This document shows positions 1,091 to 17,447 of a stretch of DNA of 21,541 nt, piece after piece; within the stretch, counting starts at the first letter, position 1, and every line of letters starts with the position of its first letter. The notes below the pieces were generated by a model. That model did no database searches. It saw only the letters and a list, made by a program, of their open reading frames with translations, and was not told the DNA's origin. Both the position numbers and the translations under genes were made by a program. Origin of the DNA: a virus. The stretch is from the IMG/VR virus record IMGVR_UViG_3300021368_002252, positions 1-21,541 of that record; one strand, written 5' to 3'.

Positions 1091-3460
1091 TTAAAGGGGG
1101 TCAGGGGTGGGGTCGCCAGGATCGTCACCGTCACCGTCGCCATCTGGTTCTTCAGGGTCAGGTTCCTCAGTGCAATCACTACATGGAGGGCAATCGTCAG
1201 AAGTGCAACATGGCGCAAGAAGAGAAGTTATGAAACAACGGGGGTCAAACGCTCCTCCAATTCCATCGCAAAATTCCTCGGTAACATCTTGGTAGAATAT
1301 TCCAAACCCACAGCAGTCGGATGCGCAATCACGGCAGCACCCAAGTTCAGGAGCAGGGGTTGTAGTTGTAGTTGTGGTGTTAACGTCTGGGTCTGGGCAA
1401 TCTAAGCAGCTATTAAAGATGTCTCCAATTCCACCTCCCGGCTTATTGCTACCTTTTACGTAACTTTTGCAACTTTGTCCTGGGATCGCGCTGTTGGTAG
1501 CGCATCCAGCAGAATCGGTTTCCGTGCAGCTTATTAAGCTACTGTCGGCGTCACTGTAGCAACAGCAGATGATAACTGGAGCTTCAGTGGTTGTTGTGGT
1601 AGTTGGGGCGCCCGTAGTCGTTGTTGTGGTGGGGGCTTGAGTTGTAGTTGTGGTTGGAGTTGCGGTTGTAGTTGTTGTTGGAGTGGCGGTTGTAGTTGTA
1701 GTACACGGGCCAGAGTCATCGCACGACTTACACGTAAAAAACGTAGCATCATCACAAGTGCCAGGGCCTTTAATTGGGGTCAAACCCATATTTTGGAGAT
1801 CTGAGGCATAAGCGTCTGCTTGAGCTTTATTAGGGAAGTCAACACAACTTTTTGTTTCCTGTGTTTTTTCGGGACAACCAGCACAAGGTAATGGCTCATG
1901 GCAAACGGTTACAAAAAATGGCTCTTCAGGTGGATCAGTGGTTGAAGTTGTTGTTGTTGGACCTTCAGTGGTAGTAGTGGTTGTGCCGCACTCAGGGTTG
2001 AATGTTACAGTATAATCAAAACAGGACCGAGGAGGGCTTGGTCTGCAACAAGGAACATAAGCATCGGCGCACTGACCGATTTGTGGCTCTCCACCATTAG
2101 CCGAATTCCATTCGTTGGCAATTTGGGCGATAGAGGGGCAATTACATTCACAATTACTGTTGGAGGGAAAACCTCTTCGCCTCCACTTTCGGTGTCCTGG
2201 CGGTTCGTCGGCTGAGTTGCTTTCTATGTAATCATACCTGCAATGAATGACACTTGGACTATCAGGAGGGCATGGGTCTTGCGTTGTAGTTGTGGTTACT
2301 GGTGGAGGTGGTGGATCACAATTAAATCCCGGCATCGAAAAACGACACCCAGGATAATTATCACTAAAGAAACCTTGACTACATTGTGGAAAATTTTGAT
2401 CAGAGGTTGGAGTGCTTGTTTCAAAAAACAATGGGCTTTCACCTGTAAGCTCAAAGTATCCATAGCTTGAACTAGATGTACCTACATTCGCAAAATTATG
2501 TAAAGAAAAACAAGTGCCGACTGGAAAAGAACTAACGTCAAATTCGTATTCCGCACTCATTGATTTAGTAAGACTTGCACAACAAGCCATTGGTAAATCA
2601 CCATAACAGTGGGCTGAACTGTCATTAAAAAATGAATGTATGTGTGCAACTCCTTCATAGACAGTGCCATTACCCCCTCTTCCAACAGCGTCTGCTGGGT
2701 CTTCGCACACAGAATTAAATTTATTGATGTGTTCAGACGCGCTTGTAAATGGTCCTACATATTTTGCTGGAACCATTTGATTATTTGCCACAAGAACAGA
2801 AGTTAAAAAAGCAGTATCACCATATCTTTGAAATGTACCTATTTTTAAATGAAATTTATCAACTTTTGTGGTAGTTGATCCTACAACAGTGTTTTTAAAT
2901 TTTATTGTTGCACATCCATATTTACTTCCTCGACGTTTATCGCAAAGTCCAATATAATCTATGTCTGTAGGAGTATCACCTTCTATGTATGGAAATTGAT
3001 TGTTAACAAATTCAAGTCTTGCATTAGAACCAGCGGTGTCAATCGGCCCTATGGGAACAATTCCAGACAACCAACCGTGAGTTCCAGTGCCTTTGTAATC
3101 GCGAAGATGATGACCTCGCTTAAAATGCGAAGTAAAATTAGGGATACGCTCTAAATCAAGAGGTTTTTCTGGCGAATAAGACCCACTGGCAAAAACATTG
3201 GAGTTGCCTTTAGCGGGGCCGTTTTTCGATAAGAAAAATGATTCACATGGAGAAGATTCAAAATCATCGTCACACTTTCCGCAGTAACTACCAGGAAAAT
3301 CACTACACGACCCCGGCATGTGGATACCACTTACGCCAGAACACTGAACTGATGTAAGAGATTCTGTACAAACAGGATCTCCAGAGTCGTCGCAATAAAT
3401 GCAAACAAACCCAGAAGGTAAATTAAAATCACAACAGTTACAGTTTCTAGGTTTACCCAT
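1091..3460 (-). CDS. Cys-rich, Thr/Pro-linker (mucin-like) virion surface protein
   Basis: This 789-aa protein is not a family I recognise. About 59 cysteines are spread through it, often as CC, CxC or CxxC. Runs of threonine with proline separate the Cys-rich blocks: near residues 387-392, 490-505, 585-628 (the longest, PTTTTTATP-type units) and 693-700. The C-terminus is acidic and Pro/Gly-rich (EEPDPEEPDGDGDGDD). The first 380 residues look like an ordinary folded domain with fewer cysteines; the rest resembles beads on a flexible string. No signal peptide or membrane helix is seen. It starts one base after the stop of the glycosyltransferase gene, with GGAAG as ribosome site, so the two are probably co-translated. 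A fibre or adhesin displayed on the particle is inferred from location between two fibre genes. The Thr tracts would suit O-glycosylation by the neighbouring enzyme. Confidence 0.75.
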   Translation of the reverse strand: MGKPRNCNCCDFNLPSGFVCIYCDDSGDPVCTESLTSVQCSGVSGIHMPGSCSDFPGSYCGKCDDDFESSPCESFFLSKNGPAKGNSNVFASGSYSPEKPLDLERIPNFTSHFKRGHHLRDYKGTGTHGWLSGIVPIGPIDTAGSNARLEFVNNQFPYIEGDTPTDIDYIGLCDKRRGSKYGCATIKFKNTVVGSTTTKVDKFHLKIGTFQRYGDTAFLTSVLVANNQMVPAKYVGPFTSASEHINKFNSVCEDPADAVGRGGNGTVYEGVAHIHSFFNDSSAHCYGDLPMACCASLTKSMSAEYEFDVSSFPVGTCFSLHNFANVGTSSSSYGYFELTGESPLFFETSTPTSDQNFPQCSQGFFSDNYPGCRFSMPGFNCDPPPPPVTTTTTQDPCPPDSPSVIHCRYDYIESNSADEPPGHRKWRRRGFPSNSNCECNCPSIAQIANEWNSANGGEPQIGQCADAYVPCCRPSPPRSCFDYTVTFNPECGTTTTTTEGPTTTTSTTDPPEEPFFVTVCHEPLPCAGCPEKTQETKSCVDFPNKAQADAYASDLQNMGLTPIKGPGTCDDATFFTCKSCDDSGPCTTTTTATPTTTTTATPTTTTTQAPTTTTTTGAPTTTTTTEAPVIICCCYSDADSSLISCTETDSAGCATNSAIPGQSCKSYVKGSNKPGGGIGDIFNSCLDCPDPDVNTTTTTTTPAPELGCCRDCASDCCGFGIFYQDVTEEFCDGIGGAFDPRCFITSLLAPCCTSDDCPPCSDCTEEPDPEEPDGDGDGDDPGDPTPDPL

Positions 3461-3461
3461 T

Positions 3462-4511
3462 TTAGCTTCCGTATATTGACCTTGCCTCTGCTAGAAACTC
3501 ATTAAATTTATTTTCATCGAATTTAGCATTTTCTACAAATTCTTTGTGAACAGGGTGTAAATCCATATTCAATTCAGTAAACTCTAGTATGTAATTTCTA
3601 ACTTTGTTATCTATTGTTAATTCATATTTAACGCCGTCTGGTCTAGCAAATCTGTGCAACCATTTTAAAAATGGTAAGCATAGAGCTTTCCTCCCAGCTT
3701 TTCTGTACTTTTCATGAATGTAACACTCTTCTCCACCAAAACCTCTACAGTGTTCGTTAAATCCAAGCCAAGATCTTTTAGCGGTAAAAAACAGACCAAG
3801 ACCTTGTGCAAAAATTTCAAACTCGTTTTCATCTTGATCAAAACCAAGTCTTGTGAATCCAAGCTTTTCAAGTATACCTTCATGACCTGAAAAAGCTAGT
3901 TCTTGCGGAAAAATAGTGTAGCAATGGTCACAATACTGAATTTGGTTCTGATTTTTTAAATCTACTATTTTACAATTATTATTATCATTAATAACGCTAA
4001 AGTTTTTCTGTTTGCATTTGCAAGCCCAAGCGTTGCCCCACCTTCCCCACATTTGACCTCCCCACTCATCATTAAAGTGTGTAGAGATCATTCTTAAATT
4101 ATCATAGACAAGTGGACCTTGATACAAGTGCATTGTATTTGGGTATTTATCTATAAACTGAAACAATTTTTCTAGGGTTTGTACAACTGGGCAAAGTAGA
4201 ACGTGACAATCCATAACAAGAACAAAATCTGTTTTTGCTTCTTCAATGATTTTGTTTCTAGTGGCAGATGTTCCTTGAGAATCTGGAAAATCTATAACTC
4301 TAAATTTTCCACCAAGTCCTGTTCCGCCCTGTAAGTTTTTAACAGCTTGCGCGTGTTCGTTATCTTTTGCGTTTTCAATAACTACAAATTCAAGTCTATC
4401 TAATAAGTCCTCTCTTTTGTTAAATCGTAATTCTTTAATAATATCCTGAATACTAAAGTAGGCACCATGAAAGTCCGAGTGGTGCGCCATTCCTATCGTT
4501 ATTTTCCTCAT
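3462..4511 (-). CDS. GT-A fold glycosyltransferase with a DxH motif
   Basis: This 349-aa protein looks like a nucleotide-sugar glycosyltransferase of the GT2/GT27-like GT-A superfamily. The N-terminal half has the usual arrangement: a beta strand (FVVIENAKD, residues 42-50), TSATRNKIIEEAKTDF (81-96), then VLVMDCHV (97-104) where the metal-binding DxD normally sits. Here it is D101-C102-H103, as in polypeptide GalNAc-transferases, which use DxH. A later GFGGEECYIHEKYRKAG (257-273) resembles the acceptor/catalytic GGE motif of the same superfamily. Cysteine pairs C164/C166 and C194/C197 suggest a small metal-binding insert. It lies between the Thr/Pro-tailed fibre (23 bases upstream) and the Thr/Pro-linker protein (1 base downstream), so modifying those tracts is a plausible job. 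This is inference; it could also act on host sugars. Ribosome site GAGG. Confidence 0.75.
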   Translation of the reverse strand: MRKITIGMAHHSDFHGAYFSIQDIIKELRFNKREDLLDRLEFVVIENAKDNEHAQAVKNLQGGTGLGGKFRVIDFPDSQGTSATRNKIIEEAKTDFVLVMDCHVLLCPVVQTLEKLFQFIDKYPNTMHLYQGPLVYDNLRMISTHFNDEWGGQMWGRWGNAWACKCKQKNFSVINDNNNCKIVDLKNQNQIQYCDHCYTIFPQELAFSGHEGILEKLGFTRLGFDQDENEFEIFAQGLGLFFTAKRSWLGFNEHCRGFGGEECYIHEKYRKAGRKALCLPFLKWLHRFARPDGVKYELTIDNKVRNYILEFTELNMDLHPVHKEFVENAKFDENKFNEFLAEARSIYGS

Positions 4512-4534
4512 TAATTTTCCTCATATTTTAATTC

Positions 4535-5806
4535 TTATGGAGGTGCAGTCGTAAACCCTCCCCCTCCAGGATCAGCAGTGGTCGTAGTCGTTGGAGCAGT
4601 AGTTGTTGTTGTCGTCGGAGCGGTAGTTGTTGTAGTCGTCGGAGCGGTAGTTGTTGTAGTCGTTGGAAGAGGTGTAGAAGCGCAACTGGTCCATATAGGG
4701 CGCCATTCACCGTTTTGTTTTGCGAACTGAGAGTAAGTACCACTTGCTACTTCCAAATTCGTATCTCTATTAATTGCATAGTACGTATCTCCATCTTCAC
4801 AAACACCTCCACAAGTTCTTTTTTCTACAAATAAACCAGAAGTTGGACTGCAAAAATCAGTTGGTGCAGTTAAGTCTTCTATAAAAAACCCTTCAGCAAA
4901 CCTTATCCCAGAACCAGACCCGCAAATGGTTTCGCCATTTACTGTTAAGTCTCCATAAACTTGAACATCTCTAAAAAAACCGTCCCATCTGAGATCAGGC
5001 GATCCAAGATCAAGCCCGTCGTAACATGGTATAATACGCGATGTTGATTTAATAGTATCAGACGTTGTGAACTGTAGCTGACCGTTTACAGATCTCCAAG
5101 CCCTATTGTCGTTACCAAGGTCAAAAGTTCTAGTTACAGTTGGAGAAGCATCTCCAGAAACTTGAAGTGTTCCATAGTTGTGCAATTCATTAGTGCCAAC
5201 AGCAAGTTTTAGTTCTTGTAAGTCACCACGAAGAAGCGGTGTGCCAGAACCATCAAGGCAGCAAGACCCAGAAGCTTCAGGGTGTGCGCCAAGATAAAAT
5301 TGATAGCTGTCTGACGCCCCTACGTAATAGCCAGCGCCATGACCAATAGCTATATTAAAATCGCCGTCTCTGAGATTGTAAAGAGTTTTCAAACCAACCC
5401 CTACGTTTCCATCTCCCTCGACAGAGCCAACTATGGATGAAAATCCGACAGCTGTGTTGTAATTGCCGTCTAGATTACAGCTAAGAGAGTACGCTCCAAG
5501 TGCAGTATTTTGGTCTCCATATACATTGCCTTGCATAGAGGCATACCCAATAGCAGTATTGTCTGCACCAGATTCGTAAGTTAGGTCTAGACCGTCAAGG
5601 GATAGTTCACCAACCCTTGTTTGGCGTAGGTGTGCTGATTCTATATTTAATGCTTTTACACTGTGTAACTCAAGGAACCTATGAGTAGAGTCTACAGCGT
5701 TTGTAAAAACATCTCTAATATCTTTAGGAGATATTTGTTCTGTGCTGTTGTCTGGTAAGAAAGTATTTAAAGATAGTATAAAATCATTTTCTGAGTACTC
5801 AGCCAT
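4535..5806 (-). CDS. Fibre protein with 17-residue beta-roll repeats and Thr/Pro C-terminal tail
   Basis: This 423-aa protein has three parts. Residues 1-80 include SPKDIRDVFTNAVDSTHRF, an N-terminal module resembling phage fibre or neck-attachment segments. Residues 83-155 hold five copies of an N-x-A-x-G repeat (NTAIG, NTALG, NTAVG, NVGVG, NIAIG) starting at 83, 100, 117, 134 and 151, exactly 17 residues apart. This resembles left-handed beta-roll repeats of trimeric YadA-type heads. After a beta-rich region (about 190-360) with GDLTVNGETICG, a typical fibre shaft phrase, comes NGEWRPIW (366-373) and then a tail of about 40 residues made of APTTTTTT units. It is co-oriented with, and 9 bases after, the 155-aa structural gene. 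A trimeric head or tail fibre is likely; the mucin-like tail is unusual. Ribosome site AAGGTAGGG. Confidence 0.8.
   Translation of the reverse strand: MAEYSENDFILSLNTFLPDNSTEQISPKDIRDVFTNAVDSTHRFLELHSVKALNIESAHLRQTRVGELSLDGLDLTYESGADNTAIGYASMQGNVYGDQNTALGAYSLSCNLDGNYNTAVGFSSIVGSVEGDGNVGVGLKTLYNLRDGDFNIAIGHGAGYYVGASDSYQFYLGAHPEASGSCCLDGSGTPLLRGDLQELKLAVGTNELHNYGTLQVSGDASPTVTRTFDLGNDNRAWRSVNGQLQFTTSDTIKSTSRIIPCYDGLDLGSPDLRWDGFFRDVQVYGDLTVNGETICGSGSGIRFAEGFFIEDLTAPTDFCSPTSGLFVEKRTCGGVCEDGDTYYAINRDTNLEVASGTYSQFAKQNGEWRPIWTSCASTPLPTTTTTTAPTTTTTTAPTTTTTTAPTTTTTADPGGGGFTTAPP
4593..4664 (-). repeat. 24-base tandem repeat encoding APTTTTTT units
   Basis: Three 24-base units (4593-4616, 4617-4640, 4641-4664) differ by only a few bases, and a degenerate fourth copy with a three-base insertion precedes them at about 4569-4592. 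Each encodes eight residues, one Ala-Pro followed by six Thr. Such arrays can gain or lose units by slippage without shifting frame, so fibre tail length may vary among relatives. Confidence 0.85.
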
Positions 5807-6393: not shown

Positions 6394-7401
6394 TTAGAAT
6401 GAACCCAAGAGGATTCTTCTGTTGTCAAGAACGCCAAAGCCGAGTTCAGCGAACCCGTAGTAGCCTGCTCTCTGCTGTCTGTGAAGAGTAGGATCTTCAA
6501 AGACTTGAACGGCTTGCTTCATTGGCATAACAAAGCTGTCGTTAGCACCTTGGTCAAGACCAACAACCAACTCAGCGTCACTACCTTGAACTGCACCACC
6601 AAGGGAGCCAGTGAAGAAGTCTTGATACTCTTGACCTTCTCCAAGCTCATCTAGATCGTGAAGAGTTACACCAAAGACGTTGGTGATAGGAGCGCCATCG
6701 CCACCAGCGTTGTAGATGGCAGTTCTGGTTGCGTCAGAAATCTGATCAAATCCCCAGTTGCGAACATCTTCAAGAGCTTCTGGTGAAACATAGAGGTCGG
6801 TCAAGCGACCGCGATTAGCAGAACCAGTGTTACCACCAGCGTTACGACGCATGACAGTTTGCATCAAGCTGACAAGTCTCTTGGAGAACATTCCAGCGGT
6901 TGCGTCACCATCATAAACCAAAATGTTGCGGTCAACACCAGCTGCAAGAAGGGTGTGCCAACCATCGTCATTCATCTTCTTGACGAAACCAGCTTCCAAA
7001 ACTTGCATAGCGCGACCAACGATGTCCCAACGAGCTTCGCGAGCAAAACGAAGCAAGTAGTCAATACTGCTTGTGATGCTGTAGGTTGGGATCATGACGT
7101 AATCGCCTTCGACTGATCTCTCAGGAACGCGACCATGACCAGGATTGGTGTAAGCGACGTGTTCGCCTTCAAGTCCTGGGCTAATGAGATCCAAAGGATA
7201 CTCAGTGCTTCCGCCTGGCTCGACTTGGATGGTCTCGAAAATGTTTCCGAGAATGTTGCCAACCAAAACGCCCTTACGGAGAGGAAGTTCAAGAGCTTTT
7301 GCAAACTCTCTTTGCGCAGCAAACGCTACGTTTTGATCATTGTCACCTGAACGGCGAAGCAATGTAATGAATTCTTCACTTGGTCTTTCTTTATATGACA
7401 T
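6394..7401 (-). CDS. Major capsid protein (HK97 fold)
   Basis: This 335-aa protein has the size, order and sequence style of phage major capsid proteins. A helical N-terminus (about 1-45) is followed by GNILGNIFETIQVEPGGSTE (50-69). Then come VMIPTYSITSSIDYLLRFAREARWDI (101-126), a spine-helix-like FVKKMNDDGW (138-147), LTDLYVSPEAL and a C-terminal beta-rich P/A-domain segment ending GFGVLDNRRILLGSF. It follows the protease/scaffold and decoration genes, the standard head order. A strong AAAGGAG ribosome site and more GC-rich, uniform codons than the neighbouring fibre genes fit very high expression. There is no long cleavable N-terminal delta domain like that of HK97; the scaffold is a separate product here. 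It ends at the terminator 29 bases downstream. Confidence 0.9.
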   Translation of the reverse strand: MSYKERPSEEFITLLRRSGDNDQNVAFAAQREFAKALELPLRKGVLVGNILGNIFETIQVEPGGSTEYPLDLISPGLEGEHVAYTNPGHGRVPERSVEGDYVMIPTYSITSSIDYLLRFAREARWDIVGRAMQVLEAGFVKKMNDDGWHTLLAAGVDRNILVYDGDATAGMFSKRLVSLMQTVMRRNAGGNTGSANRGRLTDLYVSPEALEDVRNWGFDQISDATRTAIYNAGGDGAPITNVFGVTLHDLDELGEGQEYQDFFTGSLGGAVQGSDAELVVGLDQGANDSFVMPMKQAVQVFEDPTLHRQQRAGYYGFAELGFGVLDNRRILLGSF

Positions 7402-14619: not shown

Positions 14620-14881
14620 TATTTTTTCTCACTATACCTTGAAATAACGATTGATAAAGATTTTCATGTCCAGTAACTTTCTTGTGGCACCAGTAACACA
14701 GTGTAATTCCATTATCAACGTCAAATCTCAAAGTAGATGCGCTTGCCCATTTTTGTATATGGTGTGCATTAAGATGTTTTTTCTTTCTGCAACCCGGCAT
14801 TTGGCATTGCCTATTGTCTCTCGCGAAAACTTTATTCCTCCAGTCTCTGTAAATTGGGTCGTTAAAATCTCTTCTTGTCAT
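14612..14881 (-). CDS. Small HNH endonuclease (terminase-associated type)
   Basis: This 89-aa protein is a minimal HNH nuclease: C26/C31 and C62/C65 form a structural zinc site, LNAHHIQKW (38-45) gives the catalytic His pair H40-H41, N57 lies in VDNGITLC, and H66/H72 follow. Small HNH proteins next to terL in many phages take part in cos-site cleavage or DNA packaging, and its position 730 bases upstream of terL fits. Its ATG overlaps the stop of the gmd gene (ATGA), so it is translationally coupled. It could instead be a homing-type enzyme, but its tight overlap with neighbours argues for a resident gene. Confidence 0.85.
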   Translation of the reverse strand: MTRRDFNDPIYRDWRNKVFARDNRQCQMPGCRKKKHLNAHHIQKWASASTLRFDVDNGITLCYWCHKKVTGHENLYQSLFQGIVRKNNG

Positions 14882-15966
14882 GATAAATCCCTCATAACCA
14901 TCATCTTGACTAAATCTTCAAAAGTATGTTTAGGTGTCCACCCTAGTTTTTCTTTGGCCTTTGAGCAATCACCTCTTAGGTAATCTACTTCCGCTGGCCT
15001 ATAAAACTCTGGATCTACAACTACAAAGTCTTCCCACTCTTTTATTCCAACAGAGTTAAAGGCTATGGATAAAAATTCTCTTACCGTGTGGGTTTCTCCC
15101 GTACAAATCACATAGTCATCTGGCTCGTCCTGCTGTAGCATCATCCACATAGCTTCGCAGTAGTCTCCAGCAAAACCCCAGTCTCTGTATGCATCAAGAT
15201 TTCCTAGCCTTAGTTTTGGAAATTTCAATCCTTCTGTGATGTATATTTCATTGTCATTGGTTAATAGGTCATGTAGTCCTTTTGGAGATACATCATTAGT
15301 GATACACCATTTAATAAAATCACCAATCCATTTAGTAATTTTTCTAGTAACGAAGTTTTCACCACGTCTTGGTCCTTCATGGTTGAATAATATGCCAGCG
15401 CTAGCGTGTAAGCCATAGCCCTCTCTGTAAAGCCTTGTCATGTAGTGGGCGGCACATTTGGAAATGGCATAAGGGCTTTGAGGAAGGAATTTAGTTTCCT
15501 CGTTTTGGTACTTTTCTACAGGTAATCTGCTGTCAAAATCGTTGTCTTGCGATCTTGTGTCGTAATTACTACCAAACATCTCACTGCTACTCGCTTGGTA
15601 AAATTTAGTATTTGTCATTTGGAGATCAGTTAAGCCTTGTAAGATGTTTAAACAACCTTTTCCCGTTATGTCCCAAGTAAGTGCTGGCTGTTTAAAGGAT
15701 ACGGCAACATGACTTTGCGCAGCAAGATTATATACTTCTGCGGCATCTTGGTGGTCTTTTAAAATGTTTATTACAGAGTGTGCGTCAGTAATATCTCCAC
15801 TTACTATTGTTACGTTTTCATGATTTACTAAATGTTTAATTCTAGAAGTGGTGTCAACGCTTACTCTTCTTGTTACGCCAATTACTTGATATTCTTTTTC
15901 TAGGAGCAAGTCTGCTAAATGGCTGCCGTCTTGTCCAGTTATCCCAAAGATGATTGCTTTTTTCAT
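14878..15966 (-). CDS. gmd: GDP-mannose 4,6-dehydratase
   Basis: This 362-aa protein is an extended SDR enzyme converting GDP-D-mannose to GDP-4-keto-6-deoxy-mannose, precursor of GDP-fucose, GDP-rhamnose and perosamine. The NAD(P)-binding GITGQDG is at 8-14, YQASSSEMFG (123-132) carries the active Ser and E129, and SPYAISK (164-170) the Y166/K170 pair. FNHEGPRRGENFVTRK (194-209) is the Gmd signature. Length matches bacterial Gmd (about 370). Marine and cyanobacterial phages carry gmd, but a phage copy between glycosyltransferase and packaging genes is notable. No fucose synthase follows, so host or other phage enzymes must finish the sugar. Its start has AGGA nearby and a 121-base leader after the GT25-like gene. 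Confidence 0.92.
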   Translation of the reverse strand: MKKAIIFGITGQDGSHLADLLLEKEYQVIGVTRRVSVDTTSRIKHLVNHENVTIVSGDITDAHSVINILKDHQDAAEVYNLAAQSHVAVSFKQPALTWDITGKGCLNILQGLTDLQMTNTKFYQASSSEMFGSNYDTRSQDNDFDSRLPVEKYQNEETKFLPQSPYAISKCAAHYMTRLYREGYGLHASAGILFNHEGPRRGENFVTRKITKWIGDFIKWCITNDVSPKGLHDLLTNDNEIYITEGLKFPKLRLGNLDAYRDWGFAGDYCEAMWMMLQQDEPDDYVICTGETHTVREFLSIAFNSVGIKEWEDFVVVDPEFYRPAEVDYLRGDCSKAKEKLGWTPKHTFEDLVKMMVMRDLS

Positions 15967-16087: not shown

Positions 16088-16696
16088 TTATTCTATTACA
16101 AAGTCCTTTGTGTCAAAATTTGTCACTGGTCGAGTATGTCCATCTGTTTGAAAAAACACTGGACCTCTTTTTGGTGTTAAAAATAATTCTTTTTGCGAGT
16201 CGTATGCTAGCTCCTTGTCGTGCCAGTTGGTTATATCTATTGATCTGTCGCATAAATTTATGTAGTATTCCGCAGACTCGCGCGTTGGTATTAATATAGC
16301 GTGCGCAGCTAGTGAATTCTTAACTCTATAGTATTCATCGTCGTGTGACGTAAGTTCAAGCCTTCCTTGTCCAGCATCATGTAAACTTAATCCAAAGTAT
16401 ATTAATTTAGCCTCTTTATTTATCTCTAGGTCAAACGGAAAATCGTGCAAAAGTTCAACGTCATCTTCTAGTATTAAAAGTGGAAACTTGTTTGAGTCTA
16501 TTGCAAGCTGTGCGGCTCGCCTGTGTGCGCCCGAAACTATGTTTACAGTAGCAATACCATCTTGAACTGGGACAGCAACTCTTTCGTATGGTAATCCTAA
16601 GTTTGTTAATTTTTCTTCCATCAACTCTCGCTTGGCATTGAAGCTAGGATTTTCAGAGTTGATATAATGAATATATGAATCCGAAAATTTACTCAT
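16088..16696 (-). CDS. GT25-like glycosyltransferase
   Basis: This 202-aa protein resembles the GT25 family (lipooligosaccharide galactosyltransferases and relatives). The pattern is YIHYINSE near the N-terminus, then VSGAHRRAAQLAI (54-66), where GT25 has a Gly-x-x-x-SH stretch, and LLILEDDVELLHDFP (73-87), the LEDD motif for metal and donor binding. The C-terminal half (YFGLSLHDAGQG, HAILIPT) fits the same fold. Donor and acceptor cannot be read from sequence. It overlaps the GT6 gene by 8 bases and precedes gmd, so the three form a sugar cassette. Its likely job is transferring a sugar to a phage or host surface structure. Confidence 0.7.
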   Translation of the reverse strand: MSKFSDSYIHYINSENPSFNAKRELMEEKLTNLGLPYERVAVPVQDGIATVNIVSGAHRRAAQLAIDSNKFPLLILEDDVELLHDFPFDLEINKEAKLIYFGLSLHDAGQGRLELTSHDDEYYRVKNSLAAHAILIPTRESAEYYINLCDRSIDITNWHDKELAYDSQKELFLTPKRGPVFFQTDGHTRPVTNFDTKDFVIE

Positions 16697-17447
16697 CTAC
16701 CAGCACCTTTTCGCCACTTATGTTTATTAATTTGTTTTTATGTTGTCTTAATTGTTCTTTTATAGAAGACGTGTCTAGTGTCATACTTCTTGTGTAGCCT
16801 ATCCCAGATTTGTCACTGACCAAAAATGGAAACATTTCTGTTTTTACAACATGTGGCTCGTTGTAGTGAAAATACTTATTCAAGTAGCTCTCGTCATTCC
16901 ACGGTGGTTCGTGAGGTATTTTTCTGTCTTCTAGTTGCCACTCTCTGAGTAGTTCGCATAGTTCTATAAATTTATCTTTCTGTCCACCAAAGAAAGCGCC
17001 ATAGTAATACATCTGTGGTAAATCTGTATCTTCGGGTACATAAGCTTTGGAAACTGGGTTTCTATCAAAGGGTTTTGAGTCTTTCATCCAGTCTCTATTT
17101 CCGTAGTGTTCACCTCCAACTAGATCGCCAATTAAATTAGACATATCAAAGTTTGAATTTACACTTGTGTCAGCGTCCAAGTAATAAATGTAATCAACAT
17201 CTTTGTCTTTTAATTTCATTATGTTTTTAAATTTAGAGTTTGTACCCTCAACCCAGTCGGAGTGTTGGTCGTGATAATACTCTATATCTATTGAGTCTTG
17301 TAGATAACCGCTTGGATCTGTATCTGAAAAAAAGAAAAACGTTACTTGATCATCGCCTTTATAGAAATGATAGAACCTTTTTATAAACTTTATTCCAAGA
17401 ACAAAGTATGCGTTAGTCGCTACAATTGCTATTCCTATTTTTCTCAT
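16689..17447 (-). CDS. GT6-family (ABO-like) glycosyltransferase
   Basis: This 252-aa protein matches family GT6, retaining alpha-1,3-Gal/GalNAc-transferases that include the ABO blood group enzymes. Signature segments in order: YIYYLDADTSVN (86-97, D91-A92-D93 as metal-binding DxD), EHYGNRD near 113-119, SKAYVPED (133-140), YYYGAFFGGQ (147-156, acceptor loop) and WNDESYLNKYF (183-193), which contains E186 where ABO enzymes have their key Glu. It lacks the membrane anchor of animal enzymes, as expected for a cytoplasmic enzyme. The DxD is intact, unlike the NxN seen in characterised bacterial GT6s. GT6 is rare: vertebrates, a few bacteria and at least one cyanophage. It starts at the stop of the preceding gene (TAATG overlap). 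Confidence 0.88.
   Translation of the reverse strand: MRKIGIAIVATNAYFVLGIKFIKRFYHFYKGDDQVTFFFFSDTDPSGYLQDSIDIEYYHDQHSDWVEGTNSKFKNIMKLKDKDVDYIYYLDADTSVNSNFDMSNLIGDLVGGEHYGNRDWMKDSKPFDRNPVSKAYVPEDTDLPQMYYYGAFFGGQKDKFIELCELLREWQLEDRKIPHEPPWNDESYLNKYFHYNEPHVVKTEMFPFLVSDKSGIGYTRSMTLDTSSIKEQLRQHKNKLINISGEKVLVDE

Follow-up and report, generated by a model that had tools for sequence, protein, structure and literature searches.

The window analysed here is the whole 21.5-kb virus record IMGVR_UViG_3300021368_002252 from IMG/VR (21,541 nt). Going by the ORF map and the Pfam and PHROG matches, the genes on its minus strand include those for terminase, cement, and fibre-like proteins. The gene for a 349-aa glycosyltransferase lies inside this structural cassette; it is transcribed after a 423-aa ORF, from which it is separated by 23 nt, and is followed after a single nucleotide by a 789-aa ORF (Table 1). 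The ORF coordinates and the run counts agree with the original prediction that two proteins with Thr/Pro tracts flank the glycosyltransferase gene at these distances. That prediction also described both flanking proteins as surface proteins, which holds by homology for the 423-aa protein, a virion protein with fibre/spike-type PHROG matches. The 789-aa protein contains 59 Cys residues and matches no Pfam or PHROG family, and its position within the structural cassette suggests that it may likewise reside on the virion. A 335-aa protein encoded at positions 6394-7401 of the window was taken as the capsid protein; it shares 82-97% identity with its counterparts in the best 80 of about 600 IMG/VR contigs, whereas a search of 50,697 cultured phage records gave no match to it.

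Table 1. Features of the glycosyltransferase locus and related genes in the window
Feature	Coordinates	Strand	Support or remarks
Cys-rich protein, 789 aa, nine Thr runs, proposed second acceptor	1091..3460	-	Tract analysis
Main Thr tract of the 789-aa protein, aa 587-625	1586..1702	-	
GT27-like GT-A glycosyltransferase, 349 aa	3462..4511	-	Pfam Glycos_transf_2 3.7e-9; AF2 pLDDT 94; 29 best PDB entries GT27
H286, expected third metal ligand	3654..3656	-	Invariant; spacing as H359 of GalNAc-T2
GGEECYIHEK motif, aa 259-268	3708..3737	-	Invariant in 36 relatives; counterpart is GGENLE of GalNAc-T2
Insert with CxC...CxxC (C164, C166, C194, C197), zinc-ribbon-like by eye	3921..4022	-	
DxH motif, D101-C102-H103	4203..4211	-	D and H invariant; corresponds to D224-S-H226 of GalNAc-T2
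Fibre/spike-like virion protein, 423 aa, C-terminal Thr tract	4535..5806	-	PHROG tail spike 1.2e-16, virion structural protein 1.1e-17
Thr tract of the 423-aa protein, PTTTTTTA repeats, aa 381-410, proposed acceptor	4577..4666	-	
GDP-mannose 4,6-dehydratase-like enzyme	14878..15966	-	PF16363 2.6e-110
202-aa protein, LEDD motif, GT25-like by eye only, possible extender (inferred)	16088..16696	-	phrog_24091 (unknown function) 5e-8
GT6-family glycosyltransferase, possible glycan extender (inferred)	16689..17447	-	Pfam Glyco_transf_6 4.3e-17

The 423-aa protein contains four runs of at least four Thr residues (aa 382-410), and the 789-aa protein contains nine (aa 389-701). The richest 30-aa window holds 23 Thr residues in each carrier, compared with a maximum of 14 in residue shuffles (1000 per protein). 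The Thr codons within the runs are a mixture of ACA, ACT, ACC, and ACG. Identical Thr codons are adjacent in six of 40 cases in the 789-aa protein, against 12.6 expected from composition, and in five of 19 cases in the 423-aa protein, against 5.3 expected. Since the codons are mixed, and identical neighbours fall below expectation in the 789-aa protein, simple trinucleotide slippage is ruled out as the source of the tracts.

The 349-aa protein contains both motifs of a GT-A enzyme that had been read from it, namely D101-C102-H103 and GFGGEE, the latter starting at G257. Residues D101, H103, and H286, together with the GGEECYIHEK motif, are invariant across an alignment of 36 viral relatives, and D101 and H103 are also invariant in 38 mostly bacterial relatives. 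The Cys-containing insert is present in most members of the window's clade and absent from the other clades in alignment A1. The match to the Pfam Glycos_transf_2 model, which is a broad one, scores 37.2 bits against a curated cut-off of 23.3. The PDB sequences nearest to profile A1 are GT2 chains (e.g., TarS 5tze, E 0.004), and no GT27 sequence was found with this profile among PDB sequences at E values up to 1; profile A4 gave a weak match to GalNAc-T7 only at E 0.36. In distant relatives (L031, L033-L044, and L047), the glycosyltransferase is fused to a second domain, which in L047 matches Methyltransf_24 (1.1e-7), with a rhamnosyl O-methyltransferase/CmcI match just under the cut-off; from sequence, this methyltransferase-like domain suggests methylation of the glycan. 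No relative of the fusion form was found among the 50,697 cultured phage records.

The AF2 model of the 349-aa protein, built from an alignment of 36 relatives, has a pLDDT of 94.1 and a pTM of 0.92. All of the 50 matches listed by Foldseek against the PDB are polypeptide GalNAc-transferases, and the 29 top PDB entries in VIA-align all belong to GT27 (Z 20.0-24.0, rmsd of about 3 over 253-275 residues), ahead of the best entries outside the family, GlfT2 (18.5), K4 chondroitin polymerase (17.8), and RmlT (17.7). When a bacterial relative was modelled as well, GT27 again ranked first (Z 24.2 down to 19.7), by a smaller margin over the best other entry (RmlT, 19.8). The comparison with GT2 and GT27 proposed in the original prediction divides by method, with GT27 placed first by fold in two models and Pfam GT2 returned by sequence alone. 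The AF2 model of the 349-aa protein has a GALNT-type GT-A catalytic fold, a fold that other GT-A enzymes share at lower Z. TarS, RmlT, and K4 chondroitin polymerase, the GT2 enzymes that come closest in profile searches or rank next in the fold comparison, have structural Z values below those of GT27, and act on teichoic acid or polysaccharide.

GT27 comprises GT-A enzymes with a DxH motif and a ricin-like lectin domain, and the Mn ligands of GALNT1 are Asp209, His211, and His344 (PMC4202792). The DxH motif and distal His of the 349-aa protein are expected, from residues and spacing, to form the corresponding Mn-binding triad; 27 residues separate the first Gly of GGE from the distal His both in this protein (H286) and in GalNAc-T2 (H359). 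The polypeptide GalNAc-transferases (GALNT, CAZy GT27) thus share with the 349-aa protein the predicted GT-A fold, the spacing of DxH and distal His, the GGE motif, and an acceptor context rich in Thr and Pro, but differ in that identity in the structural alignment is about 13%, and that the present family is encoded by phages and bacteria. They differ further in domain structure: the whole 349-aa protein aligns to the catalytic domain of GalNAc-T2 (residues 135-416) and ends there, and the full-length structural alignment contains no ricin-like lectin domain. The protein is called GT27-like rather than filed as a GT27 member. A shared fold alone is no proof of function, and the argument for the acceptor rests on genome context.

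To describe that context, relatives were collected from IMG/VR (47 with a single protein query and 401 with an alignment query, of which 80 were taken) and from GTDB genomes (80 of 97 taken), with ORF maps produced by mechanical calls. A tract was defined as at least 12 Thr in 30 aa, a threshold fixed following initial inspection of the data, and one representative was counted per 70%-identity cluster. The ORF directly upstream of the glycosyltransferase (-1) carries a tract in 29 of 41 viral clusters, compared with 11 of 329 ORFs at eleven other offsets (Fisher 1e-24, a value that overstates independence because the clusters share ancestry). When loci fetched by tract pattern are left out, the viral counts become 26/38 at -1 and 9/303 elsewhere, and the result is much the same when runs of at least four Thr are counted instead (32/41 at -1). 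Bacterial genome relatives follow the same trend at a lower rate, with a tract at -1 in 10 of 59 against 11 of 509 elsewhere. In a control with unrelated phage loci of the GT6 type found in the window, tracts occur in 0/20 ORFs at -1 and 0/20 at +1. After masking of the tracts, the -1 carriers fall into 15 BLAST families, the largest of which (19 members) may be joined by Cys-rich segments. At least one of the loci in bacterial genomes, L307, looks like a prophage because one of its neighbours is a tape measure protein. The neighbours pooled over 14 GTDB loci (e.g., L264, L277, L281, L287, and L302) include HprK-related kinase A, PqqD-like, sulfotransferase, GT25, and dioxygenase families.

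Of the homologues of the 423-aa protein, 12 have both a tract and a glycosyltransferase next door and 69 have neither; the other six are discordant, four of them (L007, L011, L012, and L032) with the tract on the gene after the glycosyltransferase, one with a split ORF, and one at a contig end; these rows are related and include duplicates, so they reflect one or a few events rather than 87. Among the capsid-sharing phages alone, the association between tract and glycosyltransferase is weak (p 0.04, hand-classified table). About a quarter of the glycosyltransferase relatives have no adjoining tract (e.g., L181, L193, L206/207, and L348, one of these relatives being in a 162-kb record). Most Thr-tract viral contigs are without this glycosyltransferase, which is present in two of 36 large records, and one 73-kb record (L240) shares the capsid-like gene and has a tract but no glycosyltransferase. 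Tracts without the gene, named in the original prediction as evidence against it, are thus found in part, and the idea that every Thr-tract phage has this enzyme is ruled out. Such phages may use other enzymes: a PF11397 glycosyltransferase occurs in four of the 36 large Thr-tract records. This GT60-type gene was seen in L050 and in the records of L078, L110, and L121.

Because the enzyme has a GT27-like structure and catalytic residues, and its relatives lie beside Thr tracts, it probably puts sugar on the tracts. We consider it likely that the 349-aa protein acts as a polypeptide O-glycosyltransferase of a GT27-like, Mn-dependent type on tract Thr residues of both neighbours, giving clustered mucin-like O-glycans on virion proteins; the predicted fold, the conserved catalytic residues, and the tract linkage have been computed in its support. 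The enzyme would take the sugar from a nucleotide-sugar donor, for which UDP-GalNAc is just one candidate, and transfer it to Thr in the tracts of the 423-aa and 789-aa proteins. The virion proteins would thereby acquire clustered mucin-like O-glycans, and this coat may serve in shielding, solubility, or adhesion. The virion O-glycosylation system originally proposed is in this way favoured by the GT27-closest model, the triad spacing, and the tract linkage, which is strong in phages and weaker in bacteria, but not in a strict form, given the tract-less relatives and the many tract contigs that do not carry the gene.

The Pfam GT2 assignment and the GT2 sequence neighbours of the 349-aa protein would also suit a GT2-type transferase that acts on host LPS, capsule, or a lipid-linked glycan, in seroconversion or superinfection exclusion, with the tracts as flexible linkers; seroconversion-type phage GT2 genes are well known. 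This reading is unlikely in view of the top rank of the GT27 fold in two models, the location of the gene in the structural cassette, and a tract linkage that extends over about 15 carrier families and reaches bacteria. Glycosylation of virion proteins outside the tracts, with the tract serving as a spacer that holds a glycosylated or receptor-binding part off the shaft, would account for the tract-less loci L181, L193, L206/207, and L348, which keep a large neighbouring structural protein. However, the tract accompanies the glycosyltransferase across different carrier proteins, and this alternative is judged quite unlikely as well. Phage proteins often carry Thr tracts, in most cases without this glycosyltransferase, so tract proteins and enzyme might share fibre cassettes through chance or mosaic hitch-hiking with no functional link; the concentration of tracts at one position, the similar behaviour of bacterial genomes, and the negative GT6 control make this highly improbable.

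Beyond tract glycosylation at this locus, a wider reading can be put forward tentatively, as a possibility that we hold to be somewhat less than even: a phage mucin-type O-glycosylation in which the GT27-like enzyme starts the glycans on fibre Thr tracts, the GT6 and GT25-like enzymes of the window extend them, and members of the same family act on cellular proteins with Thr tracts in several bacterial phyla. The 202-aa LEDD-motif protein, the GT25-like candidate, has no Pfam match. The GDP-mannose 4,6-dehydratase-like gene is kept in capsid-sharing phages both with and without the glycosyltransferase, which rules it out as a system-specific component; the enzyme is probably not specific to Thr-tract glycosylation.

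Glycosylation of virions by phage enzymes is described as established in mycobacteriophages in a passage of PMC12363180, which cites Freeman et al. 2023. Like the enzyme proposed here, the Che8 proteins gp108-110 are phage-encoded glycosyltransferases acting on virion proteins, and gp108 looks by eye like a glycosyltransferase-methyltransferase fusion, but they are unrelated to the GT27-like phage family by HMM: gp108, gp109, and gp110, with Che8 as the one mycobacteriophage compared, show no similarity to the A1 HMM (best E 0.098, negative bit scores). A tblastn search with the 349-aa protein found no relative in the 50,697 cultured phage records, a collection that includes the Che8 record and in which Che8 gp110, used for validation, matched 706 records. 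The GT60/PF11397 GlcNAc-transferases (Skp1-type), a protein-acting family, are encoded in some other Thr-tract phage contigs but belong to a different Pfam family, and the 349-aa protein does not match the PF11397 profile at E values up to 1. No description of a phage GT27-like enzyme or of fibre Thr-tract glycosylation was found in the literature covered, which included few subscription papers. According to PMC5504323, bacteria do not carry O-GalNAc on Ser/Thr. What is new relative to mycobacteriophage virion glycosylation is the pairing of a GT27-like enzyme with Thr tracts.

If the proposed activity is correct, mucin-type sugar-coating of proteins, with the genes for enzyme and acceptor side by side, would reach phages and bacteria, and a testable prediction would follow for the virion surface chemistry of uncultured phages. 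The family would also offer small candidate enzymes for producing clustered O-glycans in bacterial hosts, and may represent a prokaryotic relative through which the origin of the animal GalNAc-transferases could be studied.
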